A DNA stretch of 37,418 nucleotides from Rhodovarius sp. GTDB taxonomy: Bacteria > Pseudomonadota > Alphaproteobacteria > Acetobacterales > Acetobacteraceae. The notes under the pieces were generated by a model, which had not been told where the DNA came from, did no database searches, and was given only the letters and a program-made list of their open reading frames with translations. This document shows positions 6,270 to 19,438 of the stretch, one piece after another. The stretch is from contig JANWYF010000010.1 of NCBI GenBank assembly GCA_025057055.1, positions 1 through 37,418 on the forward strand, given 5' to 3'. The first letter of the stretch is position 1, and each line of letters starts with the position of its first letter. The translations under genes and the position numbers were made by a program.

Positions 6270-6917
6270 TCACTGGCTGGCCCAGAGGATGCGGTGCATC
6301 CAGGCGAGATCGGCGAGGTCGAAGCTGTAGTTGGGATGGGCTGGATTGAGGCTTTGCAGCTCGATCCGCCGGGCCGATTGGCGCAGCAGCTGCTTGGCCA
6401 TCACCTCCCCCTGCCGGGTGCGCACCACCACGCGATCGCCGCGGCGGACCGGCGCGGCCGGGGAGACGATGACGATATCCCCGTCGCGGAAGACGGGCTC
6501 CATGGAATCGCCTGAGATCTCGAGCGCATAGGCGTTGGGGTCGGTGATGTCGGGCAGGGTGATCTCATCCCAGCCGCCGCCCACCGGAAATCCGCCGTCG
6601 TCGAAGAACCCCTCGCCCCCCGCCTGGGCCAGGCCGATCAGCGGGATGCGCCGGCCCTGGCCGCTGTTGCGGCCTCGCCCCCCCGGGGCCTGGCCCGAGA
6701 CGAGGGCGGCAAACGTCTCGATCGGTGTTCCGGTGGCGGCCAGCACCTTGGCCACGCTCTCGGTCGAGGGCCAGCGCGCGCGGCCGTCGGGCCCGGTGCG
6801 CTTGGAGGGGTTGAAGGCGGTCGGGTCGAGTCCCGCGCGGCGCGCCAGCCCCGAGGGCGAGAGGCCGTTCTCCGCCGCGATGGCGTCGATGGCCCGCCAG
6901 ACGTCGTCATGTCGCAT
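6270..6917 (-). CDS. S24-family (LexA/CI-like) transcriptional repressor
   Basis: 215 residues with the start at ATG 6915-6917. An N-terminal helix-turn-helix (about 5-70, 'GLSPSGLARRAGLDPTAFNP') is followed by a LexA-type peptidase: candidate Ala-Gly cleavage bond at 99-100 ('LAQAGGEG'), nucleophile S138 in 'EISGDSMEPVFRDGD' and general base K175 in 'GEVMAKQLL'. Proteins of this type repress phage or stress genes and cleave themselves with RecA after DNA damage. It is divergent from the phage structural cassette, as expected of a repressor. Close relatives also occur as ordinary chromosomal regulators in alphaproteobacteria, so control of the cassette is an inference. The ATG has no Shine-Dalgarno; a -10-like GATAAA ends 7 nt before it, suggesting a leaderless mRNA. 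Confidence 0.85.
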   Translation of the reverse strand: MRHDDVWRAIDAIAAENGLSPSGLARRAGLDPTAFNPSKRTGPDGRARWPSTESVAKVLAATGTPIETFAALVSGQAPGGRGRNSGQGRRIPLIGLAQAGGEGFFDDGGFPVGGGWDEITLPDITDPNAYALEISGDSMEPVFRDGDIVIVSPAAPVRRGDRVVVRTRQGEVMAKQLLRQSARRIELQSLNPAHPNYSFDLADLAWMHRILWASQ

Positions 6918-6924
6918 GGCCGGC

Positions 6925-6953
6925 TTTATCCTAGGTCTAGGTTCTTCACGCAA
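6925..6953 (-). promoter_or_regulatory. Candidate leaderless promoter of the S24 repressor gene with internal palindrome
   Basis: On the minus strand, TTGCGT (6948-6953), a 17-nt spacer and GATAAA (6925-6930) lie 7 nt before the ATG. The spacer holds the perfect inverted repeat CCTAG-GT-CTAGG (6930-6941), well placed for autorepression. The -35 matches only TTG of the consensus. Confidence 0.45.
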
Positions 6954-7001
6954 CAGGAAAAAACGCACAATCCCTCTTGCCGCGCCACAACCTCCGGTTT
7001 A

Positions 7002-7016
7002 GTTCTGGTTTTGTTC
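7002..7016 (+). promoter_or_regulatory. LexA (SOS) box upstream of the phage cassette
   Basis: GTTCTGGTTTTGTTC is an exact match to the alphaproteobacterial LexA operator GTTC-N7-GTTC, with the usual T-rich spacer. It ends 28 nt before the ATG of the first cassette gene, in the divergent region between the S24 gene and the cassette. It would bind host LexA, or perhaps the S24 repressor, making the cassette damage-inducible. Confidence 0.75.
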
Positions 7017-7044
7017 GCGCCGCGGACCAAGCCAGGAGAGAGAG

Positions 7045-7434
7045 ATGCCCGCAGCCCCCCGCCCCCAGCGCCACCCCGTCCTGCGCCACGCCCCCCGCAC
7101 CGAGCCCTTCGCCAGCGCCGAGGAAGCCTGGTTCTGGACCATGGCAGCCCTCATCGCACGCCAGGAGGGCGCCCGCATCCTGGCCGGCGTCGGCCGCATC
7201 CCCCGCCCCTGCGAACCCGACGACGTGCTGCGCTGCCTCGACCGCCTCTACCGCCAGCGCCGCATCGACCTCGAACATGCCAGGGTGCTGCGCCGTTTTG
7301 GTGAGCGCGGCATCCCCCCCAACCCCCGCTACCCCGAGGAGCGCACCGCCCATCGCCTGTGGCAGGAGGCGCTGTCGCGCCTGGAATGGCCGCTGCGGGT
7401 CAAGGGCATTGTCGCCGGGGGGCCTGCCGCCTGA
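7045..7434 (+). CDS. Conserved protein of alphaproteobacterial phage clusters, unknown function
   Basis: 129 residues, first gene behind the LexA box, with a strong ribosome binding site (AGGAGAG, 6-9 nt before ATG 7045). It is mostly helical and basic, with 'FASAEEAWFWTMAALIARQEG', 'CLDRLYRQRRIDLEHARVL' and a C-terminal 'LEWPLRVKGIV'. I recognise this pattern from structural gene clusters of alphaproteobacterial prophages, always without an assigned function. It has no signal peptide, membrane helix or catalytic motif. The stop overlaps the next start (ATGA), so the two are translationally coupled. A DNA-binding or late-regulatory role would suit its place but is speculation. Confidence 0.75.
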   Translation: MPAAPRPQRHPVLRHAPRTEPFASAEEAWFWTMAALIARQEGARILAGVGRIPRPCEPDDVLRCLDRLYRQRRIDLEHARVLRRFGERGIPPNPRYPEERTAHRLWQEALSRLEWPLRVKGIVAGGPAA

Positions 7435-8186
7435 TGCGCCCGGCCCATCTGCGCAGCGCCAAGGGGCAGGCGGTCTGGATCGTCTTCTCGGGCGCCGGCC
7501 ATCTGCCCTGGCAGCGCCTGCTGGCCCCCGGTTTCCGCCACTGCTTTGCCGCCCTGCACGATGCACAAGGCTGGCTGGTGCTGGATCCCCTCTGGGGCCG
7601 GCTGCTGCTGGCCCGGCTCGAGGTCGCCCCCGACTTCGACCTCCCCGGCTTCTACCTTCGTGCCGGGCTGCTGCCGATCGGCCCCTTCCGCCCCGGCCCG
7701 CCCGCGCCCTTCGCGCTGCCGCTGCCGCTCACCTGCGTCTCGGTCTGCCGGGCGGTGCTCGGTGCCGGTGCGCCCCTCGCCCTCACCCCGCGGGGGTTGG
7801 CGCGCCGGCTCATGCGACGTGCGCGGAAAATGTTCTTGACATCGGACTTTGATCCTGTATATCCGGGCCCCGTCAACGGGCGAAGCACGCCCACCGCCAG
7901 GCCGGCCCCTCCCGCCGAGGGGACCGGCCTTTTTCGCGCCATCACATCGAGGAGTGCAGGGCCCATGGGCAGCCTGTTCAGCGCGCCAAAGCCGGTGCGC
8001 ATCGACCCGCCGCCGCCTCCCCCCGCCCCGCCGGCCCCCGAGCCCGCCCGCATCGCCGAGGCGGCGCGCAGCGAGGCCCGGCTGCGGCTCGCGCGCAGCC
8101 GTCTCGGCACCATTGCCACCAGCGAACGCGGCGTCCTCGCCGCACTGCCGGTCGGACTGGCGCGCAAGAGCCTGCTCGGGGAATGA
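7434..8186 (+). CDS. Phage-associated protein of unknown function, open reading frame fused to the next small gene
   Basis: The ATG at 7434 overlaps the preceding stop. Residues 1-130 form a compact domain ('FRHCFAALHDAQGWLVLDPLWG', 'TCVSVCRAVLGAGAP', 'LTPRGLARRL') seen upstream of portal genes in related phages; the conserved Cys and His suggest an enzyme-like fold, but I cannot name it. In such genes a stop is expected soon after 'RRLMRRA'. Here none occurs: the frame runs through a promoter and an intrinsic terminator (about residues 131-177) and continues in frame into the separate 73-residue gene that begins at 7965. It is either a true 250-residue fusion or a gene that has lost its stop. 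The linker is rich in Pro and Arg and looks non-coding. Confidence 0.6.
   Translation: MRPAHLRSAKGQAVWIVFSGAGHLPWQRLLAPGFRHCFAALHDAQGWLVLDPLWGRLLLARLEVAPDFDLPGFYLRAGLLPIGPFRPGPPAPFALPLPLTCVSVCRAVLGAGAPLALTPRGLARRLMRRARKMFLTSDFDPVYPGPVNGRSTPTARPAPPAEGTGLFRAITSRSAGPMGSLFSAPKPVRIDPPPPPPAPPAPEPARIAEAARSEARLRLARSRLGTIATSERGVLAALPVGLARKSLLGE
7836..7863 (+). promoter_or_regulatory. Sigma-70 promoter inside the cassette
   Basis: TTGACA (7836-7841, perfect consensus), a 16-nt spacer and TATATC (7858-7863) make the best promoter visible in the window. Expected transcription start is near 7870, only about 30 bp before a terminator hairpin. Confidence 0.65.
7870..7934 (+). ncRNA. Candidate small RNA or attenuated leader, about 65 nt
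   Basis: It is bounded by the consensus promoter upstream and the intrinsic terminator at 7899-7934. The 5' part can form either CCCG-TCAA-CGGG (7869-7880) or GGGC/GCCC (7878-7881 with 7889-7892); these share bases and exclude each other. The segment is in frame with the surrounding reading frame but has the look of non-coding DNA. It may be a stand-alone regulatory RNA or a leader that controls read-through into the portal operon. I know of no named family that fits. Confidence 0.45.
7899..7934 (+). terminator. Intrinsic terminator before the portal operon
   Basis: Arm AGGCCGGCCCCT (7899-7910), 7-nt loop, arm AGGGGACCGGCCT (7918-7930, one bulged A) and a run of five T (7930-7934). This is the clearest Rho-independent terminator in the window. 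Confidence 0.75.
7965..8186 (+). CDS. Small proline-rich phage protein preceding the portal
   Basis: 73 residues from ATG 7965, with GAGGAG about 10 nt upstream. The protein begins 'MGSLFSAPKPVRID', has a run of seven prolines with Pro/Ala-rich flanks, then a basic helix, and ends 'LARKSLLGE'. Small proteins with this layout (short hydrophobic start, proline stretch, 'RxxLLG' end) commonly sit just upstream of podovirus portal genes; their function is unknown. It is also the in-frame tail of the longer frame from 7434. The independent start is favoured because of its own ribosome binding site and the terminator just upstream. Portal translation starts 4 nt after its stop. Confidence 0.65.
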   Translation: MGSLFSAPKPVRIDPPPPPPAPPAPEPARIAEAARSEARLRLARSRLGTIATSERGVLAALPVGLARKSLLGE

Positions 8187-8190
8187 GGCG

Positions 8191-9600
8191 ATGAGCCCGG
8201 CCGACATCCTCTCCCGCATGGAACGGGCGCTGGCCCGCCGCCGCCCGCATGAGGCGCTGTGGACCGAAGCCTACAGCTACGCCCTGCCCGGTGCTGGCCA
8301 GCGCGCCCAGCTCTTCGACGCCACCGCCGCCGACGCCGCGGAGCAGCTCGCCGCCTCCCTGCTCGCCGAACTCACCCCGCCCTGGTCGCGCTGGTTCGGC
8401 CTCGCCCCGGCCGAAGGACTGGCCGAGAGCGCGGAGGCCCAGGCCATCGCCTTCGCCCTCGAGGGCACCGCCCGCATCCTCCAGCGCGAGCTTGACCGCT
8501 CCAACTTCGCGGTCGAGATGCACCAGGCCTTCCTCGATCTGGTCATCACCGGCACCGGCGTGATCCTCATCGAGGAGGCGCCGCTCGGCGAAGCCTCCGC
8601 GCTGCGCTTCGCCGCGGTGCCCATCCTCTCGGCCGTGCTTGAGGAGGATGCCGCAGGCCGCCTGACCACCATCTATCGCGAGCTGCGCCTCTCTGCCGAG
8701 GAGATCACCCGACGTTTCCCGCGGGCGGTGCTGCCGCCCGCACTCTCGGCCGATCCGACCGCACGCCAGCGCGTGGTGGAGGCGGTCTGGCCGGCGGGCG
8801 CCAGCACCCGCTACGCCGCCCTGCTCGCCCCCGCCGGGCAGGAGCCGCTGCTCCTCGCCGAAGGCAGCTTCGCCGAAAGCCCCTTCATCGCCTTCCGCTG
8901 GCTCAAGGCACCGGGCGAGGTCTACGGCCGCGGGCCGGTGATCAAGGCGCTGCCCGACATCCGCACCGCCAACCGTGTGGTCGAGCTGATCCTGCAGAAC
9001 GCCTCGATCGCCTGCACCGGGATCTGGATGGCCGAGGATGACGGCGTGCTCAATCCGGCCACCATCGAGCTCAAGCCCGGCGCGATCATCCCCAAGGCGC
9101 CGGGCAGCGCGGGCCTGACCCCGCTCGCCGCGCCGGGCAGCTTCGACGTCTCGCAGATCCTGCTCGATGACCTGCGCCGGCGCATCCGCGCCGCGCTGCT
9201 CGCCGATCGCCTCGCCCCGCCGCCCTCGGGGAAGATGACCGCAACCGAGGTGCTCGAGCGCAGCGCCGAGACCGCGCGCCTGCTCGGCGCCACCTATGGC
9301 CGGCTGCAGAGCGAGCTGCTGACGCCGCTGATCGCGCGCTGCCTCTCGATCCTCGCCCGCCGCGGTGAGGTGCCGCCGCTGCTGCTCGAGCGCGAGGGCG
9401 TGCGGCTCTGCTACGAAAGCCCGCTCGCCCGGGTGCAGGGGCGCGCCGATGCCGCCAACACCCTGCTCTTCCTCGATGCGGTCGCGCGCATCGGCGGGGC
9501 CGCCGCGGCCCAGGTCGATGCCGCCTCCGCCGCCCGCTGGCTCGCCCGCACCCTCGGTGCGCCGGCCGAGATCCTGATCCCCCCCGCCCCCCAGGAGTGA
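8191..9600 (+). CDS. Podovirus portal (head-to-tail connector) protein
   Basis: 469 residues; the ATG at 8191 lies 4 nt after the preceding stop. The protein matches the T7 gp8-type connector family: 'WTEAYSYALPGAG' near the N-terminus, 'LTPPWSRWFGL', 'ITGTGVILIEEAP', 'SPFIAFRWLKAPGEVYGRGPVIKALPDI' and the C-terminal 'MTATEVLERSAETARLLG' helix. The dodecameric ring forms the DNA entry vertex, seeds capsid assembly and docks terminase and tail. Length is a little shorter than T7 gp8 (about 535 residues). No break or missing block is evident. It is the first gene of the T7-ordered late block. Confidence 0.9.
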   Translation: MSPADILSRMERALARRRPHEALWTEAYSYALPGAGQRAQLFDATAADAAEQLAASLLAELTPPWSRWFGLAPAEGLAESAEAQAIAFALEGTARILQRELDRSNFAVEMHQAFLDLVITGTGVILIEEAPLGEASALRFAAVPILSAVLEEDAAGRLTTIYRELRLSAEEITRRFPRAVLPPALSADPTARQRVVEAVWPAGASTRYAALLAPAGQEPLLLAEGSFAESPFIAFRWLKAPGEVYGRGPVIKALPDIRTANRVVELILQNASIACTGIWMAEDDGVLNPATIELKPGAIIPKAPGSAGLTPLAAPGSFDVSQILLDDLRRRIRAALLADRLAPPPSGKMTATEVLERSAETARLLGATYGRLQSELLTPLIARCLSILARRGEVPPLLLEREGVRLCYESPLARVQGRADAANTLLFLDAVARIGGAAAAQVDAASAARWLARTLGAPAEILIPPAPQE

Positions 9601-9608
9601 TGCGAGAG

Positions 9609-10331
9609 ATGACCGAGAATCTGCTCGAGACCGCCCTCGAGACGCCGCGCCGGCCGCGCCCGGAGGATGTGCCCGAGAAGTTCTGGGATGCCGAACGCGG
9701 CGAGCTGCGCGTCGATGCCCTGCTCAAATCCTATCGCGAGCTGGAACGGCGTCTCTCCCAGCGCCTCGCTCGGCCGGCCGAGGATGCGGACGAGGAAGAA
9801 AAGCGCCGCTGGCGCGAGCTGCTCGACATCCCGGACAGCCCGGATGGCTACGACATCACGCCGCCCGAGGGGCTCGGGATCGACCCCGAGGTCAATGAGC
9901 GCTTGCATCGCGCCGGCTTCTCCCGCGCCCAGGTGCAGCTCGTCTACGACCTCGCGGCTGAACGGTTGCTGCCCTTGATCGTCGAGGCGGCGCAGCAGTT
10001 CGAGGCGGAGCGGCAGATCGAACGTCTGAAGCAGCATTTCGGCGGCGAGGAGCGCTTCCGCCGCATCGCCCGCCAGATCTCGGCCTGGGGCCGGCAGAAC
10101 CTGCCCGCCGCGGTCTTCGAGGCGCTCTCCACCACCTATGAGGGGGTGCTCGCGATGGAGCGCATGATGCAGGGCAGCGAGCCCGCGATCGCGCGCGAGG
10201 CCGAGATCCCGCCCCCCGAAAGCGAGGAGGAGCTTAGGCGGATGATGCGCGATCCGCGCTACTGGCGCTCGCGCGAGCCGGAGTTCGTCCGCCGCGTCAC
10301 CGAAGGCTTCCGCCGCCTGGTCGGCGGCTGA
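9609..10331 (+). CDS. Capsid assembly scaffolding protein
   Basis: 240 residues, acidic and largely coiled-coil ('EKRRWRELL', 'AAQQFEAERQIERLKQHFGG'). It has the layout of the T7 gp9-like scaffold: 'VPEKFWDAERGELRVDALLKSYRELE' near the N-terminus, 'LDIPDSPDGYDI' in the middle, and a basic C-terminus that binds capsid. It lies between portal and capsid, as in T7. Possible starts are GTG 9597, ATG 9600 and ATG 9609; I chose 9609 because AGGAG (9593-9597) is 11 nt away, whereas it almost touches the earlier ones. The overlap form TGATG at 9598-9602 keeps 9600 possible. Confidence 0.8.
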   Translation: MTENLLETALETPRRPRPEDVPEKFWDAERGELRVDALLKSYRELERRLSQRLARPAEDADEEEKRRWRELLDIPDSPDGYDITPPEGLGIDPEVNERLHRAGFSRAQVQLVYDLAAERLLPLIVEAAQQFEAERQIERLKQHFGGEERFRRIARQISAWGRQNLPAAVFEALSTTYEGVLAMERMMQGSEPAIAREAEIPPPESEEELRRMMRDPRYWRSREPEFVRRVTEGFRRLVGG

Positions 10332-10342
10332 GAGAGCGGCTT

Positions 10343-10375
10343 CCGGCGCGCGCCTCCCCCCGCATCGCGCGCCGG
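10343..10375 (+). other. Perfect 10-bp inverted repeat between scaffold and capsid genes
   Basis: CCGGCGCGCG (10343-10352), a 13-nt C-rich loop, and its exact reverse complement at 10366-10375. There is no T run. It is the first of two hairpins in the 244-nt gap before the capsid gene. Confidence 0.6.
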
Positions 10376-10412
10376 GCGGGGCTGGAGCGGCCCATCGCCT
10401 GCTCGCCCCGCG

Positions 10413-10459
10413 CGCCCGCCGGCCGGCGGCCCGCCTCCTCCCCCCCCGGCCGGCGGGCG
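10413..10459 (+). other. Perfect 14-bp inverted repeat between scaffold and capsid genes
   Basis: CGCCCGCCGGCCGG (10413-10426) and its exact reverse complement at 10446-10459, with a 19-nt pyrimidine-rich loop. Such a stem could partly terminate, or set a processing point that gives the capsid gene its own stable mRNA end. Confidence 0.6.
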
Positions 10460-10575
10460 GCCCCGTCGCCCGCGCCCCACCCGCCAGCGGCGCCCGGGCC
10501 CCCCAGCGCGGCGCGCGGCCCGCAGGGAGAACCGCGCCCGCGCCCCCACCCCTCGCAATCCGGAGAGCTTCGAGG

Positions 10576-11409
10576 ATGTCGACGATCGATCAGGCCTTCA
10601 TCAAGCAGTACGCGGCCGAGGTGCACGAGGCCTACCAGCGCCAGGGCAGCAAGCTCAGGCCCACCGTGCGCAGCAAGACCGGCGTGCGCGGCGCCTCCAC
10701 CGTCTTCCAGCGGATCGGCCGCGGCTCCGCCGCCGCCAAGCTGCGCAACGGCATCGTGCCGGTGATGAACATCGACCACGCCCCGGTCGAGTGCTTCCTG
10801 CAGGACCACTACGCGGGCGACTGGATCGACCGCATGGATGAGCTCAAGATCAACCACGACGAGCGGGCGGTGATCGCCAATGCCGGCGCCTATGCCCTCG
10901 GCCGCAAGACCGACGAGCTGATCATCGCCGCCCTCGACACCACCGACAACGAGGCGGTGGGCGATCAGGCCGGCCAGACCGACAATGACGGCCTGACCCG
11001 CAACAAGGTGCTGCTCGCCTTCGAGAAACTGGGCCAGGCCGACGTGCCCGACGACGGCCAGCGCTTCGCGGTGGTGGGCTGGAAGCAGTGGAGCGAGCTC
11101 TTGACCATCCCCGAGTTCGCCCACGCCGATTACGCGGGGCCCGAGGAGCTGCCCTGGAAGGGCGGCACCCAGGCCAAGAAGTGGCTGGGGGCGCTGTGGA
11201 TCCCGCACTCCGGCCTGACCAAGGTCGGCAACCTGCGCTACTGCTACTTCTACCACCGCACGGCGGTCGGCCACGCCGTCGCCTCCGAGGTGGTGACCGA
11301 CATCACCTGGCACGGCGACCGCGCGGCCTGGTTCGTCAACAGCATGATGAGCCAGGGCGCGGTGCTGATCGACCCGCAGGGGGCGGTGCGCATGCGCTGC
11401 AAGGAGTAG
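10576..11409 (+). CDS. Major capsid protein
   Basis: 277 residues with GGAGAG about 9 nt before ATG 10576. It belongs to the phage capsid family found in many podoviruses: N-terminal 'IDQAFIKQYAAEVHEAYQRQGSKLRPTVR', central 'DHYAGDWIDRMDELKINHDERAVIANAGAYALGRKTDELIIAAL', and 'RFAVVGWKQWSELLTIPEFAHADY'. The C-terminal part ('WFVNSMMSQGAVLIDPQGAV') is complete. The fold is expected to be HK97-like, but sequence similarity to the HK97 or RcGTA capsid is not visible. No protease gene or cleaved leader is seen, in keeping with scaffold-driven, protease-free assembly as in T7. The gene is bracketed by strong hairpins on both sides. Confidence 0.85.
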   Translation: MSTIDQAFIKQYAAEVHEAYQRQGSKLRPTVRSKTGVRGASTVFQRIGRGSAAAKLRNGIVPVMNIDHAPVECFLQDHYAGDWIDRMDELKINHDERAVIANAGAYALGRKTDELIIAALDTTDNEAVGDQAGQTDNDGLTRNKVLLAFEKLGQADVPDDGQRFAVVGWKQWSELLTIPEFAHADYAGPEELPWKGGTQAKKWLGALWIPHSGLTKVGNLRYCYFYHRTAVGHAVASEVVTDITWHGDRAAWFVNSMMSQGAVLIDPQGAVRMRCKE

Positions 11410-11440
11410 GCGCAAGCACCCGGCCGATCCGATCCGCCCA

Positions 11441-11472
11441 AGGGGGCGGCGCCCCAGCCAGGCGCCGCCCCT
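11441..11472 (+). terminator. Hairpin behind the capsid gene, in the T7 T-phi position
   Basis: AGGGGGCGGCGCC (11441-11453), 7-nt loop, GGCGCCGCCCCT (11461-11472): a stem of about 12 bp, 32 nt after the capsid stop. Only a short mixed pyrimidine stretch follows, so termination is probably partial. T7 has its late terminator at the same place, between genes 10 and 11. Confidence 0.6.
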
Positions 11473-11505
11473 CCGCTTCCGTCAGAACCGCACCGGAACA
11501 TCGCC

Positions 11506-12075
11506 ATGGCCCTGACTGCGCTCGCGCTCTGCTCGCGCGCCCTGCTCAAGATCGGCGCCCGGCCCATCGCCTCGCTCGACGACGGCACGGCCGAGGCGGA
11601 AGTGGCGGCCAACCTCTACCCCGCCACGCGCGATGCGCTGCTCTCCCTCCATCCCTGGTCCTTCGCCACCGCGCAGGAGAGCCTGCCGCGCCTCGCCGCC
11701 CTGCCCAGGGCCGATTTCGCCTACGCCTTCCAGCTGCCGGCGGGTTTTCTGCGCGCGCTCTCTGCCGGCAGCCCCGGCAGCGGGGAGGGGCTGCGCTACC
11801 GCATCCTGGAAGACCGCCTGCACTGCGATGCGCCGCAGGTCGTGCTGACCTACATCTTCCGCCCCGATGAATCCGCCTTCCCGCCCTTCTTCGCCCAGGC
11901 GCTGGTCGCGCGGCTGGCCGCCGAGTTCTGCCTGCCGCTGACCGAGGCGACGGGGCGTGCCCAGCTGCTGTTCCAGCAGGCCGAGGCCGCGCTGCGGGCC
12001 GCCCGCCACGCCGACAGCGCGCAGGCAAGCCCGCGCGCGCTGCGCCACTTCCCCCTGGTTGCGGCGCGAGGCTGA
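11506..12075 (+). CDS. Tail tubular protein A (gp11-like adaptor)
   Basis: 189 residues. The start 'MALTALALCSRALLKIGARPIASLDDGTAEAEVAANLYPATRDALLSLHPWSFA' is the hallmark of T7 gp11-type adaptor proteins (helical ring between portal and nozzle), and 'LQLPAGFLRAL'-like text ('FQLPAGFLRALSAG') follows as in the family. The C-terminal helices ('LVARLAAEFCLPLTEATGRAQLLFQQAEAALRAARHADS') are complete. It begins 96 nt after the capsid gene, behind the hairpin. Its stop is 2 nt from the next ATG, so it is coupled to tail tube B. Confidence 0.88.
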   Translation: MALTALALCSRALLKIGARPIASLDDGTAEAEVAANLYPATRDALLSLHPWSFATAQESLPRLAALPRADFAYAFQLPAGFLRALSAGSPGSGEGLRYRILEDRLHCDAPQVVLTYIFRPDESAFPPFFAQALVARLAAEFCLPLTEATGRAQLLFQQAEAALRAARHADSAQASPRALRHFPLVAARG

Positions 12076-12077
12076 GC

Positions 12078-13958
12078 ATGACGCAACTGCGCACGCTGAA
12101 GAGCAGCTTCGCCGCCGGCGAACTCGCCCCCGAGCTGCTCGGCCGCGCCGATCTGCGCGCCTATGCCAATGGCGCGCGGCGGCTGCGCAACGTCTTCATC
12201 CAGCCGACGGGCGGCATCACGCGCCGGCCGGGGCTGCGCCATCTGGCCATGCTGCCCGGGCCGACGCGCCTGATCCCTTTCGAGTTCAACACCGAGCAGA
12301 CCTATCTGCTCGCGCTTTCGCACCAGCGGCTGCAGGTCTTCCTGGCCGATGCGCTGGCCGCCGAGCTGCCTGCGCCCTGGAGCGAGGAGATGCTGCCCCA
12401 GCTCGCCTACACCCAGAGCGCGGATACGCTGCTGATCGCGCATCCCGACCTCGCGCCGCTTGCGATCACCCGCAGCGGCCATACCAGCTGGACGATCGGC
12501 GGCTGGAACTGGAGCGAGGTGCCGACCCACCGCTTCGCCCCGCCGGAGGTGACGCTCACCCCCTCCGCCACCACGGGGACCATCACCCTCACCGCCTCGG
12601 CCCCGGTCTTCGAGGAGGGGCATGTGGGCGCGCGCTGGCGGGTGGCGGGCAAGCGGGTGGATATCGCCGCCCGCCTCTCTCCCACCCAGGCGATCGCCCA
12701 GGTGCTCGATCCGCTGCCCTCGACGGAGCCGACGCGCGATTGGGAGGAGGGGGCAATCTCCTCGGTCCGCGGCTGGCCGGTCAGCATCTGCTTCCACCAG
12801 GACCGTCTGGTGATCGGCGGCACGCGCGATCTGCCCAACCGCCTCTTCCTCTCGCGCAGCGGAGACCTGTTCAACTTCGACACCGGCCAGGGGCTCGACG
12901 ATGAGGCGATCTCCTTCGGCCTGGTCTCGGACCAGGTCAATGCGATCCGCGCGGTCTTCTCGGGCCGGCATCTGCAGGTCTTCACCTCGGGCGGCGAGTG
13001 GATGGTCAGCGGCGATCCGCTCACCCCGGCCTCGATCCAGCTGACGCGGCAGACCCGGGTGGGCAGCCCGGTCAAGCGCATGATCCAGCCGGTGGATGTG
13101 GACGGCAGCACGATCTTCGTCGCCCGCCACGGGCGCGCGGTGCACGAGTTCGCCTATACCGACGTGCAGCAGATCTACCAGGCGCATGATCTGGCCATGC
13201 TCGCCTCCCACCTGGTGCGCGAGCCGGTGGCGATGGCCTACGACCAGCGCGCGCGGCTGCTGCACGTGGCGATGGAGGATGGCAGCCTTGCCACCCTCAC
13301 CCTCTTCCGCGCCGAACAGGTGACCGCCTGGACCGCCCAGCACACCGAAGGCGCCTTCCGCTCCCTCGCCGAACTCGACGGGACCGTCTATGCGGTGGTC
13401 GAACGCTGGGGAACGCATCGGCTGGAGCGTTTCGACCCCGCCCTCTACCTCGATGCCGCGCTGGAGGGCGAGGCAGCGGCCCCGCAGGATGAGTGGTCGG
13501 GCCTCGAGCATCTCGAGGGGCGGATGGTCGGCATCCTGGCCGATGGCGCACCGCAGCAGGACCAGCGCGTCGCCGAGGGACGGATCCGCCTGCCCGAGGG
13601 GGCGCGCCGGGTGCAGGCCGGCCTGCGCTTTACCCATGTCATCGAGCCGCTGCCGCCCGAACTGCTGACCGGCATCGGCACCCGCGCCGCACCGATCCGC
13701 CTCGTCTCGGCCACCTTCCGCCTGCTCGAGACCGCCGATTTCGCGGTCGATCTCGGCCGCGGGCCGGAGCAGGTGCCCTTCCGCCGCCTCGATACGGCGC
13801 TGCTCGACGCGCCGCCGATCCGGTTCTCGGGCGATGTCCGCCTGCGCGCACTCGGCTGGCGGCGCGATGCCATGCAGCCGCTGTGGCGGATCGAGGGGCA
13901 CGCCCCGCTGCCGATGACGCTGCTCTCCGTCACCACCGAGATGAGGATGACCGACTGA
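12078..13958 (+). CDS. Tail tubular protein B (gp12-like nozzle)
   Basis: 626 residues with ATG 12078 close behind the tail tube A stop. The opening 'LKSSFAAGELAPELLGRADLRAYANGARRLRNVFIQPTGGITRRPGL' is the signature of podoviral nozzle proteins. The rest is beta-rich with propeller-like repeats: 'RGWPVSICFHQDRLVIGGTRDLPNRLFLSRSGDLFNF', 'VSDQVNAIRAVFSGRHLQVFTSGGEWMV' and 'SGDVRLRALGWRRDAMQPLWRI'. It is shorter than T7 gp12 (about 794 residues). In T7 this hexameric nozzle closes the tail tip and carries the fibres. The stop overlaps the next start (TGATG). Confidence 0.88.
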   Translation: MTQLRTLKSSFAAGELAPELLGRADLRAYANGARRLRNVFIQPTGGITRRPGLRHLAMLPGPTRLIPFEFNTEQTYLLALSHQRLQVFLADALAAELPAPWSEEMLPQLAYTQSADTLLIAHPDLAPLAITRSGHTSWTIGGWNWSEVPTHRFAPPEVTLTPSATTGTITLTASAPVFEEGHVGARWRVAGKRVDIAARLSPTQAIAQVLDPLPSTEPTRDWEEGAISSVRGWPVSICFHQDRLVIGGTRDLPNRLFLSRSGDLFNFDTGQGLDDEAISFGLVSDQVNAIRAVFSGRHLQVFTSGGEWMVSGDPLTPASIQLTRQTRVGSPVKRMIQPVDVDGSTIFVARHGRAVHEFAYTDVQQIYQAHDLAMLASHLVREPVAMAYDQRARLLHVAMEDGSLATLTLFRAEQVTAWTAQHTEGAFRSLAELDGTVYAVVERWGTHRLERFDPALYLDAALEGEAAAPQDEWSGLEHLEGRMVGILADGAPQQDQRVAEGRIRLPEGARRVQAGLRFTHVIEPLPPELLTGIGTRAAPIRLVSATFRLLETADFAVDLGRGPEQVPFRRLDTALLDAPPIRFSGDVRLRALGWRRDAMQPLWRIEGHAPLPMTLLSVTTEMRMTD

Positions 13959-14398
13959 TGGCTGCGCTCGCTTCCATCGCCACCTTGATCGGCGCCGGCG
14001 CCGGTCTCATCGCCCAGGCCCGGCAGGCGCAGGCCCAGGCCGCCATGCAGCGCGCCCAGGCCGAGCAGCAGCGCGAGGCCGAACGCGCCCGCCAGGAACA
14101 GCTCGCCGCCCAGCAGCAGGCCGAGGCGCGTGCCCGCGCCGCCATGCTCGCGCGCACCGTGGCCACCACCCGCGCCCGTCTCGCCGCCTCCGGCCTCTCG
14201 CCCGATGACGGGTCAGGGGCGGCACTCACCGCGGGACTGGCCGCCGAGGCCGCCGCCGCCCGCGCCGATGACGACCGCATCTTCCGCGCCCGCCTCGCCG
14301 CCGGGCGTGCCTCGCTGCTCAACCCGGATGCCAGTTTCACCGGCTTCCTGCGCGCCGGACAGGCCTTCGGCACCGCCCTGCGCAGCCTGCTCGATTGA
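13958..14398 (+). CDS. Small coiled-coil virion protein, possible internal/ejection protein
   Basis: 146 residues starting in the TGATG overlap. A glycine/alanine-rich hydrophobic segment (about 2-20, 'ALASIATLIGAGAGLIA') is followed by a long Gln/Ala/Glu/Arg coiled coil (about 22-75) and a conserved-looking end 'TRARLAASGLSPDDGSGAALTAGLAAEAAAARADDDRIFRAR'. Its place between nozzle and fibre is where T7 encodes internal core proteins gp13-gp16. It best resembles short gp14-like proteins that insert into the outer membrane on ejection. It is the only gene in this slot; no gp15 or gp16 (over 700 residues each) is present. The function is inferred from position and shape. Confidence 0.6.
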   Translation: MAALASIATLIGAGAGLIAQARQAQAQAAMQRAQAEQQREAERARQEQLAAQQQAEARARAAMLARTVATTRARLAASGLSPDDGSGAALTAGLAAEAAAARADDDRIFRARLAAGRASLLNPDASFTGFLRAGQAFGTALRSLLD

Positions 14399-14409
14399 AA
14401 GGGACCCCC

Positions 14410-16743
14410 ATGGCCGAGCACATCCGCATCGGCGATATCGCGCCGCGCATCCACTACGCGACGGATGGCGTGCAGAACGCCTTCACCTTCCCCTTCCCGA
14501 TCTTCAGCGCCGCCGATCTGCAGGTGCGCCTGGATGGGCTGCCGGTGGCCAGCGGCTTCTCGGTGCAAGGGGCCGGGCGCAGCGAGGGGGGCCAGGTCGT
14601 CTTCGACACCCCGCCGCCGGCCGGCCGCCGCCTGACCCTGTTGCGCCGCCTGCGCCTCGCGCGCACCAGCGACTTCCAGGACAACGGCGTGCTGCGCGCG
14701 CGGGTGTTGAATGACGAGCTCGACTACCAGGTGGCCGCGCTGCAGGAGCTGCGCGATGAGATCGCGGGCGCGATCCGCCTCGACCCCTCAGAGAGCGCCG
14801 AGCTGCGCCTGCCCCCCGCCGCCGCCCGGGCCAACCGCGTGCTCGGCTTCAACGCAACGGGCGGGATCGCGCTGCTGCCGCAGGGCGGGCTGGTGACCTC
14901 GGCCTTCCCGGGCGCGGTGCCGCGCAGCGTCGAGGACAAGCTGGCCGAAAGCCTTTCGGTGCGCGATTTCGGCGCGGTGGGTGACGGCGTGGCCGATGAC
15001 GGACCCGCCCTGCAGGCGGCGATGAGCGCCGCCGCTGCCTCTGGCCGGTTGCTGGTCATCGGAGAGGGCACCTGGCGCACCACCATGCCGCTCACCCTGC
15101 CCGGGGAAGCCGCGGGGCTCGTCATGTCCGGCGTGATCCTCTACGCTGGGCCGACCGGGGTCGCCCTGACCATTGGCAATGGCAGCACCTATCGCACCGC
15201 CACACGCCGCTATCTGGGGCTGCGAGTCCAGCGCGCGACTCAATCCGACTGGCAGAATGAGGACGACATCGGCATCCGTCTGGTCAATCTGGACGCCTGC
15301 CTTGTCGAGATTCGCCAAGCAGAGGGGTTCACTATCGGCGTCCAGACCCTAGGCGACGCACGCGGCTTCGAGGACAGCACGCTGCACTTGGGCCGCATCG
15401 TGAACAACTGCATCGGCCTCGACGTGCGCTGCGCCACCGCTGCTGGGTGGAACAACTCGGTGGTCTATGTCGGCGGGCATTTCGCCAATGCCTCCTCGGT
15501 CCACCCCACCATGAGCCGCTTCGGCGTGCGCTTCTCCGCCGCCCCCGGCGCCTACAACCGCCACAACGCGCATGTCTTCCTCGGACCGGCGTTCGAGCTT
15601 CAGCGTCAGGGCACGCCGGGCACGGTGGACGCCATCCCGTTCCTGGTCGAGTGCGGGGATGCGCGCTGCATCATCGCCCGTGGCATCCGGATGGAGCAGT
15701 GCAGCCCGGTGGTGGCACGCCATGTCGGCGGGTCTAACGACTGCGTGTATGAGGTTGGCTACAACGGCACTTACGGCTTCACAGGTGCGACAATCGACTA
15801 CGCGCCGGGCGCCACTCGGGCTGGTGGCAGCGTGGTCTGCTACCATCAGGCGGCGGCGGTGCACCACGCGCCACGGCTGGTCGCCGAGGCGGCGAATGTG
15901 CGGGCCAGGGCGTTCCGCCAGACCGTGGACGCAGCGGATGGCATCGGTTTCGACGAGATGGCGGTGCTATCGTCCAACCCGAACGGTCCGCCGACTGACC
16001 TCAATGGCTTCTGCTTCGCCGGGTTGTCGCTGATCACCCTGAACTCGGACAGTGTGGGGCTGCCGACCTCCCGCGCCTTGGCGTTCGTGGTGGACGCCAG
16101 CGAGTGCAAGGAGTTCGTGATCGCTGCAGAGGGCACCTCGCTGCGCCCCATCGTCATGCAGTTCGACGCGAATGAGCAGGTGCTGGGGGCGTCGGCGCCG
16201 ATCCTCTTCTCCAACATGAACGCGGTGTTCGCCGGGAGTCCCTCTTTCTGGTGGGAAGGTAACGTCAACCTGGACACGCTGACGGCTGGGCTGCCGCTGA
16301 ACCGACTGCAACGGGTCACGCTGCACCCTTCGGCCAAGTTCGCCGTGCTGGGCGTGCGTGGCGGCACCTCGGGTGCCACGCTGACCGCGCTGCGCATCTT
16401 TGCCCCGGCTACGCATGCGCCGCGGCTGATCTATGGCGGTCCGAGGCGGTGGGGGGTGCGCGAGTATACGGTGCAGGACCCGGACTGGGTCGTTCCTTCG
16501 CTGGGGCCTGGCGCCACGGCGACGCGAGACGTGACGCTCCCCGGCGTCCGGCAGGGCGACTTCGTGAGCGCAGGCTTCGCCAAGACTAGCGGCTTCCAGA
16601 ACGGCGGCGTGATCTTCCACGCATCGGTTGGCGGCACGGCCGGGACCAACCAGGTGCGAGTGACGGCGCACAACGTCTCTTCCGGCACGATCAATGTCGG
16701 GGCGGGGACGTTGTTTGTGCGCGCCGTCAAGCCGCGGCTGTGA
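14410..16743 (+). CDS. Tail fibre / tailspike with T7-like anchor and beta-helix domain
   Basis: 777 residues from ATG 14410 (a TTG at 14395 is possible but has no ribosome binding site). Residues 1-125 match the T7 gp17 N-terminal anchor ('FTFPFPIFSAADLQVRLDG', 'QVVFDTPPPAGRRLTLLRRLRLARTSDF', 'ALQELRDEIAGAIRLD'). A pectate-lyase-like beta-helix starts at about residue 183 ('SVRDFGAVGDGVADDGPALQAA'), the form used by capsule or O-antigen tailspikes. The C-terminal 90 residues look like a beta-sandwich ('TRDVTLPGVRQGDFVSAGF', 'VRVTAHNVSSGTINVGAGTLFVRA'). From about 15150 onward codon use shifts visibly: more A and T, and codons such as CTG/TTC/GGT mixed with AAT, ACT and CAA. The receptor-binding part was probably exchanged by recombination. 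No separate fibre chaperone is seen. Confidence 0.85.
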   Translation: MAEHIRIGDIAPRIHYATDGVQNAFTFPFPIFSAADLQVRLDGLPVASGFSVQGAGRSEGGQVVFDTPPPAGRRLTLLRRLRLARTSDFQDNGVLRARVLNDELDYQVAALQELRDEIAGAIRLDPSESAELRLPPAAARANRVLGFNATGGIALLPQGGLVTSAFPGAVPRSVEDKLAESLSVRDFGAVGDGVADDGPALQAAMSAAAASGRLLVIGEGTWRTTMPLTLPGEAAGLVMSGVILYAGPTGVALTIGNGSTYRTATRRYLGLRVQRATQSDWQNEDDIGIRLVNLDACLVEIRQAEGFTIGVQTLGDARGFEDSTLHLGRIVNNCIGLDVRCATAAGWNNSVVYVGGHFANASSVHPTMSRFGVRFSAAPGAYNRHNAHVFLGPAFELQRQGTPGTVDAIPFLVECGDARCIIARGIRMEQCSPVVARHVGGSNDCVYEVGYNGTYGFTGATIDYAPGATRAGGSVVCYHQAAAVHHAPRLVAEAANVRARAFRQTVDAADGIGFDEMAVLSSNPNGPPTDLNGFCFAGLSLITLNSDSVGLPTSRALAFVVDASECKEFVIAAEGTSLRPIVMQFDANEQVLGASAPILFSNMNAVFAGSPSFWWEGNVNLDTLTAGLPLNRLQRVTLHPSAKFAVLGVRGGTSGATLTALRIFAPATHAPRLIYGGPRRWGVREYTVQDPDWVVPSLGPGATATRDVTLPGVRQGDFVSAGFAKTSGFQNGGVIFHASVGGTAGTNQVRVTAHNVSSGTINVGAGTLFVRAVKPRL

Positions 16744-16766
16744 GGCGAGAGGGAAGAGCGCCGGCC

Positions 16767-17081
16767 ATGCCCAAGCGCAACCTGCAGAAGCTCGGCCTCG
16801 ACACCGAGGAGCTGCTCGCCCGCATCGCCCGCGACTACCGCGACTTCCTGACCGGCAACGCCGCCTATCAGGAGATCGAGGCGGCGAAGCTCTTCCGCGC
16901 CCGCCACGATGCCGGTCGGGCCGGGCTGGCCCATCTCGAGGCGCTGCTCCGCCTGGCCGCCGCCCAGGGCGAGGGGGCGGAGCCGTCGGCGCTGCTCGAT
17001 GCGCTCAGGCGCGCCCGGGCTGCGCTGGCCGAAGCCGCCTCGGGCGAGGACGGCGCCGATGACGATCCCGCCGGCGGCTGA
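16767..17081 (+). CDS. Probable small terminase subunit
   Basis: 104 residues from ATG 16767 with GGGAAGAG about 9 nt upstream. It is helical and acidic at the C-terminus ('ASGEDGADDDPAGG'), beginning 'MPKRNLQKLGLDTEELLARIARDYRDFLTGNAAYQEIEAAKLFRARHDAGRAGLAHLEALLRL'. No clear helix-turn-helix can be read. It overlaps the large terminase start by 23 nt, as small and large terminase genes often do, and the T7 order (fibre, small terminase, large terminase) supports the call. The evidence is mainly position and size; an unrelated packaging helper is possible. Confidence 0.55.
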   Translation: MPKRNLQKLGLDTEELLARIARDYRDFLTGNAAYQEIEAAKLFRARHDAGRAGLAHLEALLRLAAAQGEGAEPSALLDALRRARAALAEAASGEDGADDDPAGG

Positions 17082-18495
17082 TTTCCCGGAGTTCGTCTGG
17101 CTCTGGAACGAGCTGCAGGGCCAGGCGATGCCGCCGCACCACCGCAGGATGGCGCGCTGGCTGGCGGAGAGGCATGCGCAGGGGCATCGGCGCCTGCTGC
17201 TGATGGCCTTTCGCGGTGCCGGCAAATCGAGCCTGGTCGGGCTGTTCTGCGCCTGGTGGCTGGCGCGCGAGCCGGAGGCCCGCATCCTGGTCCTGGCGGC
17301 TGAACATTCCCTGGCCCAGCGCATGGTGGCGCAGGTGCGGCGCATCATCGAACGCCATCCGCTCTGCGCCCATCTCCTGCCCGCCGGGGCGGAGGCCTGG
17401 GCGGCCGACCGCTTCACCGTCGCACGCCGGCGGGTGCTGCGCGATCCCTCGATGCTCGCCCAGGGGATCGGCGGCAACATCACCGGCGCGCGCGCCGACC
17501 TCATCGTCTGCGACGATGTCGAGGTGCCGGGCAACTGCGACACGCCGGCCAAGCGCGAGGAGCTGCGCACCCGCCTGGCCGAGGCCGAGTTCGTGCTGGT
17601 CCCGGGCGGGACCCTGCTCTTCGTCGGCACGCCGCACTGCGCCGAGAGCCTCTACCGCCCGGGGGTGGAGCCGCTGCTCAAGGGCTGCCGGCGGCTCCGC
17701 CTGCCGCTGCTGGATCGGCACGGCCGATCGGCCTGGCCAGAACGCTTCGATGCGCAGACGATCGCCGCGCTGCGCGAGCGCGTCGGGCCGCTCGCCTTCG
17801 CGCGGCAGATGCAGCTCGAGCCGATCCAGGATGCGGCGGCCCGGCTCGATCCCGCGCTCATCATCGCCTACCGGGAGGAGCCGGCCTACCGCGAAGCGCA
17901 GGGCCGGGCGCAGCTCTTCCTGCTCGGCCGGCGCATGGTCTCGGGTGCGGCCTTCTGGGATCCGGCCTTCGGCCGACCCGACCGCGGCGATGGATCGGTC
18001 CTCGCCTGCGCCTATGCCGATGCCGAGGGGCGCTTCTACCTGCAGCGCGTCCTCTGGCTGACCGCCGATGACATGGCGGCCGAGGATGCGGCGACCCAGC
18101 AGTGCCGCGCGGTGGCGGCGGTGCTGCGCGCGCTGCATCTGCCCGCGGTCTTTGTCGAGACCAACGGCATCGGCCGCTTCCTGCCGGCCCTGCTGCGCCG
18201 GGTGCTGGCGGCCGAAGGCGTGGCGGCCGCGGTGCGCGAACATGCCAACCACCGCCCGAAGCAGGAGCGGATCCTGGGCGCGCTCGATCCGCTGCTCGCC
18301 GCCCGGCGCCTCTATGCCCATGCCGAGGTGCTGGCCGGTCCCTTCGCGCGGGAGATGGCAGCCTGGCGCCCCGACGACCGCAACGCCCGTGACGATGCCC
18401 TGGATGCGGTGGCCAGCCTCGTCCTCAGCGAGCCGGTGCGGCTGCCGCTGGTGCCGCTGCCCCCGCGCCCGCCGCCCTGGCGGGGCGGCGCATGA
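17059..18495 (+). CDS. Terminase large subunit (packaging ATPase and nuclease)
   Basis: 478 residues from ATG 17059. The ATPase domain has Walker A 'AFRGAGKSSL' (50-59) and Walker B 'LIVCDD' (148-153) followed by 'VEVPGNCDTPAKREEL', and coupling motif 'LLFVGTPH' at about 186-193. The RNase H-like nuclease keeps D301 in 'WDPAFG', E368 in 'VFVETNG' and the acidic pair in 'RNARDDALDAVA' (445-446). It belongs to the T7 gp19/podovirus type, slightly shorter than T7 gp19 (about 586 residues). All catalytic residues are present, so packaging is probably functional. It cuts and pumps DNA through the portal using ATP. The 3' 71 nt are overlapped by a minus-strand gene. Confidence 0.9.
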   Translation: MTIPPAADFPEFVWLWNELQGQAMPPHHRRMARWLAERHAQGHRRLLLMAFRGAGKSSLVGLFCAWWLAREPEARILVLAAEHSLAQRMVAQVRRIIERHPLCAHLLPAGAEAWAADRFTVARRRVLRDPSMLAQGIGGNITGARADLIVCDDVEVPGNCDTPAKREELRTRLAEAEFVLVPGGTLLFVGTPHCAESLYRPGVEPLLKGCRRLRLPLLDRHGRSAWPERFDAQTIAALRERVGPLAFARQMQLEPIQDAAARLDPALIIAYREEPAYREAQGRAQLFLLGRRMVSGAAFWDPAFGRPDRGDGSVLACAYADAEGRFYLQRVLWLTADDMAAEDAATQQCRAVAAVLRALHLPAVFVETNGIGRFLPALLRRVLAAEGVAAAVREHANHRPKQERILGALDPLLAARRLYAHAEVLAGPFAREMAAWRPDDRNARDDALDAVASLVLSEPVRLPLVPLPPRPPPWRGGA

Positions 18496-18694
18496 TCTCC
18501 GTGGCATGGCGCTCCAGCCCTGCCGCGGTCGCGCCATAGCGCCCATCGGCCCGCAGCTCCACGAAGCCCATGCCGGCAAGCCGGCGCAGGCACGGCTCGT
18601 CAGCCAGGCCAGGCGGCCGCCCGACATCGCCCACCAGCCACAGGCGATGCAGCGCCGAACGGCAACAGGTCTCGAGATAGGGCTCGTTCCACAT
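18425..18694 (-). CDS. Small winged-helix-like protein antisense to the terminase end
   Basis: 89 residues on the opposite strand, filling the otherwise empty gap between terminase and the next gene. From ATG 18692-18694 it reads 'MWNEPYLETCCRSALHRLWLVGDVG', 'LADEPCLRRLAGMGFVELRADGRYGATAAGLERHATEI': a helix-helix-strand-turn-strand-helix arrangement like a winged helix. The last 17 residues are Ala/Pro/Gly-only because they lie over terminase codons. I believe similar small proteins occur at this place in related elements, and the sequence before the overlap looks coding. It could be a regulator made against the direction of the late genes, or an accessory gene. An earlier start (18730) would cover the next gene's ribosome binding site. 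Confidence 0.55.
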   Translation of the reverse strand: MWNEPYLETCCRSALHRLWLVGDVGRPPGLADEPCLRRLAGMGFVELRADGRYGATAAGLERHATEIMRRPARAAGAGAAAPAAAAPAR

Positions 18695-18728
18695 CGCTCC
18701 ACGCGTTCCAGCCGGAAGGACATATAGC

Positions 18729-19019
18729 ATGAATGCCGAGGATTTCTCCCCCGCCCTCGCCATGCTGGTGCTACAAAGCCCGCTCGCGGCATGGCTGTTC
18801 TACGTGCTGCACGGCATCCGGCGCGAGCTCGACCGCCGCATCGAGCACGGCGATCAGCGCACCGGCGACGGGCTGAGCCGCACCCGCGACGAGCTCGCCG
18901 CCTTCAAGCTCGAGGTGGCGCGCACCTATGTGCCGCTCTCCCTGATCCGCGAGATGGAACGGCGGATGAGCGAGCAGCTGGCCCGCATCGAGGCCAAGAT
19001 CGAGGGCATGCTGCGATGA
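18729..19019 (+). CDS. Small membrane/coiled-coil protein, possible holin
   Basis: 96 residues with GGAAGGA about 11 nt before ATG 18729. One hydrophobic helix at about 9-28 ('ALAMLVLQSPLAAWLFYVLHGI') precedes a charged helical tail ('RRELDRRIEHGD', 'MERRMSEQLARIEAKIEGMLR'). The stop overlaps the lysin start (ATGA). Size, single membrane span, charged tail and position before an endolysin suit a class III holin or pinholin. It could instead be a membrane-anchored packaging or spanin-like helper; the call rests on topology and context. Confidence 0.6.
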   Translation: MNAEDFSPALAMLVLQSPLAAWLFYVLHGIRRELDRRIEHGDQRTGDGLSRTRDELAAFKLEVARTYVPLSLIREMERRMSEQLARIEAKIEGMLR

Positions 19020-19438
19020 GCCCGGCCGAGATCCTGGCCCGCACCCTTCATGCCGAGGCGGGCGGCTGCCCGGCGCGGGGCATCGAGGCGCTGGCCGCGC
19101 TGATCCTGAACCGGGCGCGCGCCGCCCTGGCCTGTCCGACGGCCCGCGCGCGCTTCAGCGCCGAGCGCAGGGCGCCCGACCTGGCGGGGATGGTGGCGCT
19201 CGTCTGCCTGGCCCCCTTCCAGTTCCCGGCGCTGCGCCGCACGCCGCGCCCGGCCGAGGACGACCCGGTGCTCGCCATGTGCCGGCGCATCGCCGCCCGC
19301 GCCTTGGCGGGCAGCCTGCCCGATCTCGCGCAGGGGGCGACCCATTTCCACCGCCTCTCGGAGCTGCCGGCCTGGGCCATCGGCCGCCAGCCGGTGGCCG
19401 AGATAGGCGGGCTTGCGCTCTACCGCCTGGCGGCGTGA
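19016..19438 (+). CDS. SleB-family cell wall hydrolase (phage endolysin)
   Basis: 140 residues from the ATG overlapping the previous stop. The N-terminus 'ILARTLHAEAGG' followed by 'GIEALAALILNR' is the core of the SleB/CwlJ hydrolase_2 fold, with E14 as likely catalytic glutamate; 'GATHFHRL' and 'WAIGRQPVAEIGGLALYR' complete the domain. Such enzymes cleave peptidoglycan glycan strands. There is no signal peptide, so it needs a holin, and the gene before it is the candidate. It is the last phage-like gene of the block; no spanin pair is evident. Some chromosomal lysozyme-like proteins of alphaproteobacteria share this family, but position favours an endolysin. Confidence 0.82.
   Translation: MSPAEILARTLHAEAGGCPARGIEALAALILNRARAALACPTARARFSAERRAPDLAGMVALVCLAPFQFPALRRTPRPAEDDPVLAMCRRIAARALAGSLPDLAQGATHFHRLSELPAWAIGRQPVAEIGGLALYRLAA

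Follow-up and report, generated by a model that had tools for sequence, protein, structure and literature searches.

A conserved promoter-leader-terminator element, predicted to attenuate late transcription, in a podovirus-like gene cluster of Acetobacteraceae

Late-gene switches and the analysed locus

In phage lambda the late promoter pR' is followed by a short leader (6S RNA) and the terminator tR' before the late operon, and the gene for the regulator, Q, lies upstream. RNA polymerase pauses at a consensus sequence whose longer form reads GG...TGYG. The consensus itself is described as a Y at -1, a G at +1 and a G at -10 (PMC10268239), and pausing at lambda pR' is reported at positions 16-17 (PMC7876045). 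The known Q families share no sequence similarity with one another, according to the Discussion of PMC9371919. Gene transfer agents are characterised in PMC9662315 by endogenised genes, often spread over several loci, by mostly vertical inheritance and by the carriage of random host DNA.

The window, by which we mean the whole stretch of 37,418 nucleotides that was analysed, is one contig, C41, of the 251 that make up a 3.07-Mb genome. Family searches revealed a compact T7-like cluster of about 13 kb (6270-19438) with chromosomal genes on either side, in the order divergent S24 repressor, gA, gB, p831, portal, scaffold, capsid, tail tubes, small internal gene, tailspike, terminase and lysin (Table 1). 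Among the cluster proteins scanned there was no match to integrase or replication families, and a DNA similarity search of phage records gave a single weak match, within the portal gene. The nearest row to the window on the portal tree is Rhodovarius crocodyli, and the window's end branch is long. Going by sequence, we find ahead of the late genes a conserved, putatively attenuating late promoter. Its best explanation, and in our judgement a fairly probable one, is a Q/AlpA-like, SOS-gated antitermination switch.

Table 1. Features of the cluster and of the element before its late genes, with window coordinates.
Feature	Position	Strand	Evidence
S24/LexA-fold (CI-like) repressor, divergent from gA	6270..6968	-	Pfam Peptidase_S24 3e-22; phrog_4 repressor 7e-26; 73/80 loci
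GTTC-N7-GTTC box between repressor and gA	7002..7016	+	70/96 distinct repressor-gA intergenic regions
gA, 129 aa, candidate Q-like antiterminator	7045..7434	+	79/80 loci; AF2 model; VIA-align to Q21
gB (extent from relatives, end approximate; frame here open to 8186)	7434..7850	+	79/80 loci
GGAAAA, start of A-rich stretch 5' of the -35 (possible UP element)	7825..7830	+	A at 64-92% per position, 141 aligned copies
-35, TTGACA	7836..7841	+	pattern scan; 141-copy alignment
-10, TATATC (16-nt spacer) or TATCCG (18-nt spacer, relatives' register)	7858..7865	+	aligned relatives
Predicted +1 (YR+1Y)	7872	+	R and Y columns 135/135 distinct segments
5' hairpin, GGGCG-AAGCA-CGCCC	7878..7892	+	pause core G-10 = 7879, Y-1 = 7888 (+17), G+1 = 7889
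Predicted intrinsic terminator, bulged 13-bp stem + U5	7899..7934	+	folding; hairpins in relatives
First late gene, phrog_831 (p831)	7965..8186	+	phrog_831 2.7e-6
Portal (Head-tail_con)	8191..9600	+	Pfam 1e-122
Late cluster remainder: scaffold, major capsid, tail tubes A + B, internal protein (by position), tailspike, terminase large subunit, lysin	9597..19438	+	family searches

Promoter, pause and predicted leader RNA

Relatives were gathered by their portal gene, for which 20 of 60 genomes, including that of the window, gave matches. Species genomes yielded 468 portal stretches, of which 80 were kept (those with names come from Roseomonas-like genera and other Acetobacteraceae, the rest being MAGs with family, order or class names), and viral contigs yielded 329, of which 80 were kept. 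A position matrix trained on 148 distinct portal-upstream regions recognised the promoter-leader element in 141 of them. A closer inspection of the seven others revealed three with fewer than 400 bases of flank (L111, L131, L175) and four with distant portals (L016, L017, L018, L021), the first of which still carries CTTGACA and ACGGGACAATTGCGTC. With a covariance model built without the window, the window scored 30.2 bits (E 8e-7) and the next match 11.3 bits.

The promoter TTGACA-N16-TATATC, as proposed by a sequence-only reading of this DNA, is present and unique in the window: a pattern scan found it once at 0 mismatches and found no near-copies elsewhere (0 other sites at up to 3 mismatches, against a mean of 1.6 in shuffles). 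In aligned relatives the -10 lies two bases later, which gives an 18-nt spacer and corresponds to TATCCG (7860-7865) in the window; either register fits the window sequence, which does not decide between them. A generic scan of the window for promoters and terminators listed neither the 7836 promoter nor the 7934 terminator, because it accepts only -10 boxes that end in T and stems free of bulges. No conserved binding element was seen in the -35/-10 spacer over 141 aligned copies, and no clear -10-like element with A2 and T6 was visible by eye in their first transcribed bases. Transcription would start at 7872, where the full YRY motif is kept in 121 of the 135 distinct segments.

A promoter-proximal consensus pause is predicted at +17. 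G-10, Y-1 and G+1 (with Y-1 set on position 61, and the paused RNA end at +17) are present in 136 of 136 copies examined, part of this agreement being built in, as the profiles used to find the copies cover the pause positions. These comprise 108 distinct cis copies and 28 others selected by hand, 20 of them unlinked and 8 triad. The motif with TG at -3/-2 is found in 106 of the 108 cis copies, 19 of the 20 unlinked and five of the eight triad copies. The window's copy is one of the two cis exceptions, and it alone of the 136 has CA (7886-7887, in the loop) for the near-invariant TG. The second copy in the window's genome (G000:C224) keeps TG at these positions.

The RNA predicted from 7872 to 7934 (about 63 nt) folds into exactly two hairpins, with a minimum free energy of -36.6 kcal/mol (z -4.15) that 0 of 200 dinucleotide shuffles equalled. 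The 5' hairpin has five base pairs, GGGCG/CGCCC, and dominates its end of the RNA, since the transcript from +1 folds into these two hairpins only, with an MFE frequency of 0.71. Two mutually exclusive 5' stems had been suggested from the sequence alone. The rival stem would need TTGAC from the -35 to pair with GTCAA, and as the -35 lies outside a transcript from +1, folding lends no support to such competition there. Rfam gave 0 matches in the window, with no family above its gathering score, and the open-access literature searched gave no description of the leader element, which had been called undescribed.

The second hairpin comprises 11 G-C and two A-U pairs (7899-7930) before U5, and termination would fall at about 7934. 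An RNA of about 65 nt with a bulged 12-bp stem and five T had been expected; the hairpin and its T run stood, with the stem corrected to 13 bp and the RNA to about 63 nt. Among relatives, a hairpin of dG <= -20 kcal/mol before at least three T is found in 135 of 141 leaders (29.4 shuffled), and one of dG <= -25 before at least four T in 107 of 141 (5.0 shuffled), whilst 26 of 141 lack a hairpin of dG <= -20 before at least four T. These stricter criteria were used because a looser one, any hairpin before T3, says little: it picks out 137 of 141 leaders (in L039 it wrongly took the 5' hairpin) and also 103.6 of 141 when shuffled. The terminator stem sequences vary between genera.

The first 22 or so transcribed bases, GYCAACGGGCGANNTGCGYCCG, are the best conserved part of the 141-copy alignment, above the promoter. 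Within the 108 distinct cis hairpins, the pyrimidines opposite G (positions 54, 61, 63, 64 and 65) have changed 57 times, in every case C>T, whereas the five paired Gs (51, 52, 53, 55 and 62) have changed to A three times and otherwise 11 times. One unlinked copy carries A at position 54. Mapped onto the portal tree, the paired-pyrimidine changes represent at least 18 events, always C/T. We also examined alignment A5 (75 of 87 non-redundant leaders, with the window held out and mis-cut and some similar rows dropped); alignment A6, with 76 of 77, likewise holds the window out. The 375 cells of the five core pairs in A5 contain 37 one-sided changes, all to G.U or U.G, and eight broken pairs. In the named structure 89.8% of cells are paired; column shuffles give 87.8% and slid versions 30-58%. 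The covariation score and the doubly changed cells lie above all shuffles, and two of five covariation measures do not (doubly changed pairs 1 against 1.3; further pair types 8 against 7.3). Of the 71 cells of the outer A-U pair (5-25), 36 do not pair, and an independent-pairs test of the outermost pair (positions 50/66) had just four pairs, too few for a decision. We read this pattern as a 5-bp RNA hairpin under selection, kept mainly via C-to-T (G·U) changes. The linker 3' of it (A5 columns 24-45) is frequently a C/U-rich, anti-Shine-Dalgarno-like TTCCTCCCGATCC outside the window's clade.

The same inverted repeat, at about +7 to +21, could alternatively act at the DNA level, as an operator bound by the S24 repressor or gA, with the RNA hairpin as a by-product. 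Such an operator would account for a near-palindrome at the start site, seen as CAACGGGCG...CGCCCGTTG in some copies, and the Caulobacter GafZ palindrome GCGCCCG-CTGGCGC, as given in PMC11150451, is like the GCGCCCGCTGGC of many relatives. However, a DNA duplex would treat C>T and G>A alike, so that 57 changes of the one kind against three of the other favour the RNA hairpin, and the loop is asymmetric. We consider an operator unlikely.

Second locus and the upstream gene gA

The window's genome contains two strong promoter-leader matches, on C41 (41.1 bits) and on C224 (35.6 bits), the next scoring 14.5. Two leaders were found in eight of nine genus genomes, the ninth genome being 69% complete, and in G005 both copies lie on one contig, 174 kb apart. 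The second copy is followed by an ORF of about 800-870 aa with a tailspike-type N-terminus in nine of the ten loci with sequence; the exception, the second R2 match of G023, is weak (28 bits) and has no tailspike after it. Family searches were made in two of these nine loci, where the ORFs have tailspike family matches and a phrog_18004 protein lies just before, and the others share the same N-terminal letters. A GP4-type fibre protein (Pfam Gp80, 1.5e-21) comes after the tailspike in the window's genome. Because the second copy precedes a tailspike/fibre operon, the leader marks a set of operons. Moreover, eight fetched stretches (L207, L210, L212, L214, L221, L222, L223 and L225) have gA directly 5' of a leader with no portal within the stretch; seven of these units include the repressor and six have pyrD nearby downstream. 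In L272, which covers the location of L207, the gA-leader unit is followed by a short phrog_18004 gene. These units without a portal may represent a reduced system, or another one, governed by this switch. Genome G022 (L211, L212, L220, L271) has five R2 leader matches of 28-53 bits, more than any other genome in that leader search. One R1 match, L216 (G169:C67), has no promoter ahead and was judged false.

These copies bear on whether the segment encodes a stand-alone, trans-acting small RNA, built of the 5' hairpin, a C/U-rich, anti-Shine-Dalgarno-like seed UUCCUCCC and the terminator, whose place before the late operon is incidental. In many genera the anatomy is that of a typical small RNA, and leader copies at other loci suit this proposal. 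However, the second copies likewise stand before phage structural operons in nine of ten loci, and the window's clade has lost the seed-like linker but retained the 5' hairpin, which makes a role in trans less likely. No promoter was listed between the terminator and the late genes by the strict scan that also missed the 7836 promoter. We regard a small RNA of this kind as quite unlikely. The sequence-only reading had offered either a small RNA or an attenuator; the conserved layout, the Q-like neighbour and the second copy favour the attenuator, and a short RNA is expected as its by-product.

The gene gA was detected in 84 of 150 genomes of the family and in 30 of 240 sampled from the class. 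When its AlphaFold (AF2) model (mean pLDDT 76.5) was searched with VIA-align, the top four entries were all Q21 (Z 7.6-6.5 over 91-96 of 129 residues, 8-9% identity) and the next unrelated entry had Z 3.1; all of these, those of Q21 included, lie below the Z of about 13 under which the program warns of common helix arrangements. Foldseek also placed Q21 at the top, with six of 26 hits to Q21 at E values of 2.7-8.2, which are not significant. Searched against Pfam, PHROGs, NCBIfam and PDB sequences, the gA sequence matched no Q family and was not placed in the Q21/Phage_antitermQ family (PF06530), for which a search of the window's genome also returned nothing. Its PHROG matches are weak and unnamed (phrog_27202, 12 of 50 members, best 0.006; phrog_15782, 9 of 50, best 6e-4). 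The modelled likeness to Q21 is a lead, not proof, to gA as a putative antiterminator. As for gB as a regulator, a fold search without a significant match led us to reject it. The protein alignments A3 and A4 hold the window with 49 of 85 and 37 of 106 non-redundant proteins, respectively.

Leader and gA occur together in 59 of 150 family genomes, with the leader only in 6, gA only in 25 and neither in 60, giving an odds ratio of 23.6 for which the Fisher p ignores kinship. Both searches covered 150 genomes selected in the same way, which we take to be identical sets. With its strict filters, the leader search overlooked the main copy in the window, and what it matched in G000 is the C224 copy. 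Weak matches (24-27 bits) account for three of the six leader-only genomes. The box between repressor and gA, which we take to be an alphaproteobacterial LexA-type box, would be expected in 0.5 of the 96 regions from mononucleotide shuffles, and its exact form is absent in 26. This suggests SOS control through the box, with LexA or the local repressor as the candidate binder.

The order repressor-gA-gB-late genes recurs outside Acetobacteraceae. In 24 gA loci of other families (31-70% G+C) a repressor was found in 22, gB in 23 and a portal in 19, with scaffold or terminase in three more. Six of the 24 have a promoter and then a terminator before the late genes (0.2 shuffled), with differing initial sequences, and no such pair was found in the other 18. 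The layout may be older than the present leader.

A plain insulator or leaky terminator, working without a dedicated antiterminator, gains some room from the fact that the likeness of gA to Q comes from a predicted fold. However, here a promoter lies 5' of the terminator and is conserved along with the pause core, leader copies stand at other loci and gA co-occurs with the leader, all of which make a plain insulator very unlikely.

An open upstream frame also meant that conservation outside it needed showing: in the window the gB frame runs on from 7434 to 8186, past promoter, hairpin and terminator into p831. Among 137 loci, gB stops inside the promoter in 112 and within the leader in 11, and the frame is open into p831 in 11, namely the window and loci with portals 70-79% like the window's. 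The element is still conserved where gB stops inside the promoter, and its conservation therefore does not come from the gB frame. This rules out the coding sequence of a gB-p831 fusion as the whole explanation, to which we give next to no credence, for all that the frame is open in the window. Conservation beyond the coding frame had been named beforehand as a check, and it was found; the element is genuine and unexplained by coding. Translation through the leader, in the window and the ten related loci, could itself influence the terminator.

The proposed switch and known systems

The element has the look of an old T7-like prophage that became domesticated, and it fits one that is largely vertically kept. 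Of eight genomes from different genera, five have DUF952, pyrD and had downstream of the cluster, one has DUF952 only and two have none of the three; upstream genes are common to four of the eight. Genus labels change 19 times on the portal tree, against 34.3 when shuffled and a minimum of 9; for four of ten genera (Roseococcus, Rubritepida, Paracraurococcus and Roseicella) the clustering does not exceed chance. In 15 of 15 pairwise comparisons of gA, portal, capsid and repressor, pN is lower than pS. Known here from its genes alone, the element is consistent with some of the gene transfer agent criteria set out in PMC9662315; endogenised genes do lie on several loci, in the main cluster and in the tailspike/fibre locus with its like leader. 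The 6270-19438 cluster, at a chromosomal address common to several genera, is a candidate podovirus-type gene transfer agent. The Sabulicella cluster (L075) is seemingly without the genes from tail tube B to tailspike, its terminase lying about 4 kb past the portal start.

In the antitermination switch that we favour, RNA polymerase would start at about 7872 and halt at the consensus pause with an RNA of about 17 nt, and by default would stop at the 7934 terminator to leave an RNA of about 63 nt. DNA damage would relieve repression at the LexA-type box or by the S24 repressor, and gA would be made. It could then load on the paused polymerase and carry it past the terminator, switching on p831 and the operon from portal to lysin and, through the like leader elsewhere, the tailspike/fibre operon. 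The 5' hairpin would form as the RNA emerges and may be a signal for gA or keep it threaded on the RNA. The leader thus construed probably keeps the late particle genes off until an antiterminator lets polymerase pass. Antitermination gating the operon from portal to lysin had already been proposed from the sequence, and the conserved promoter, leader and terminator, the candidate Q-like gA and the second copy lend it support. The switch would serve a multi-locus podoviral particle that is inherited for the most part vertically, possibly a gene transfer agent. A wider reading, on balance doubtful, takes the leader as the signature of a new class of podovirus-derived, gene transfer agent-like particle kept vertically in Alphaproteobacteria, whose scattered loci are co-activated by a new family of Q-like antiterminators once DNA is damaged, with a 5' RNA hairpin too wide for the nozzle locking the antiterminator on the transcript.

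If the switch is as proposed, leader and gA together would offer a means, visible in sequence, to find, map and turn on a podoviral element widespread in Acetobacteraceae and other Alphaproteobacteria. Q/AlpA-type antitermination would extend to a protein family without sequence similarity and with a conserved 5' RNA hairpin, and a podovirus-type gene transfer agent in Alphaproteobacteria would become directly testable.

Among described systems, lambda pR'-tR' with Q is similar in its promoter, leader and terminator before the late operon, and its upstream regulator gene and its pause at about +16/17 (PMC7876045) are paralleled by the candidate gA and the predicted pause. Here, in contrast, no lambda-type -10-like element with T6 was seen, the 5' RNA hairpin is conserved, there is a second target locus and no sequence relation of gA to Q was found. 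Phage 21 Q (Q21) is approached by gA in predicted fold, over 91-96 residues, but not by a sequence family match. The put RNA of HK022, as presented in PMC9378689, is likewise a nascent RNA element tied to the suppression of termination; put acts alone, however, whereas here a gene accompanies the leader. Caulobacter GafZ is an antiterminator over an alphaproteobacterial domesticated particle cluster and has the palindrome given above. In the account of PMC11150451, however, GafZ works with GafY and IHF, its palindrome lies between -35 and -10 and the terminator lies past the first gene. Many relatives have a leader consensus, GCGCCCG-nTGGC at about 7887-7899, that is like the GafZ site of PMC11150451 but placed after +1, maybe by chance in G+C-rich sequence. 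The Pseudomonas alpR-alpA-PalpB-tB system (PMC9371919) resembles the present layout in having a self-cleaving LexA-like repressor, a small antiterminator gene and a promoter with a downstream intrinsic terminator. There, as PMC9371919 describes it, the AlpA site lies between -35 and -10, a spacer that is unconserved here, and the output of AlpA is lysis genes, whereas here it would be particle genes on two loci.
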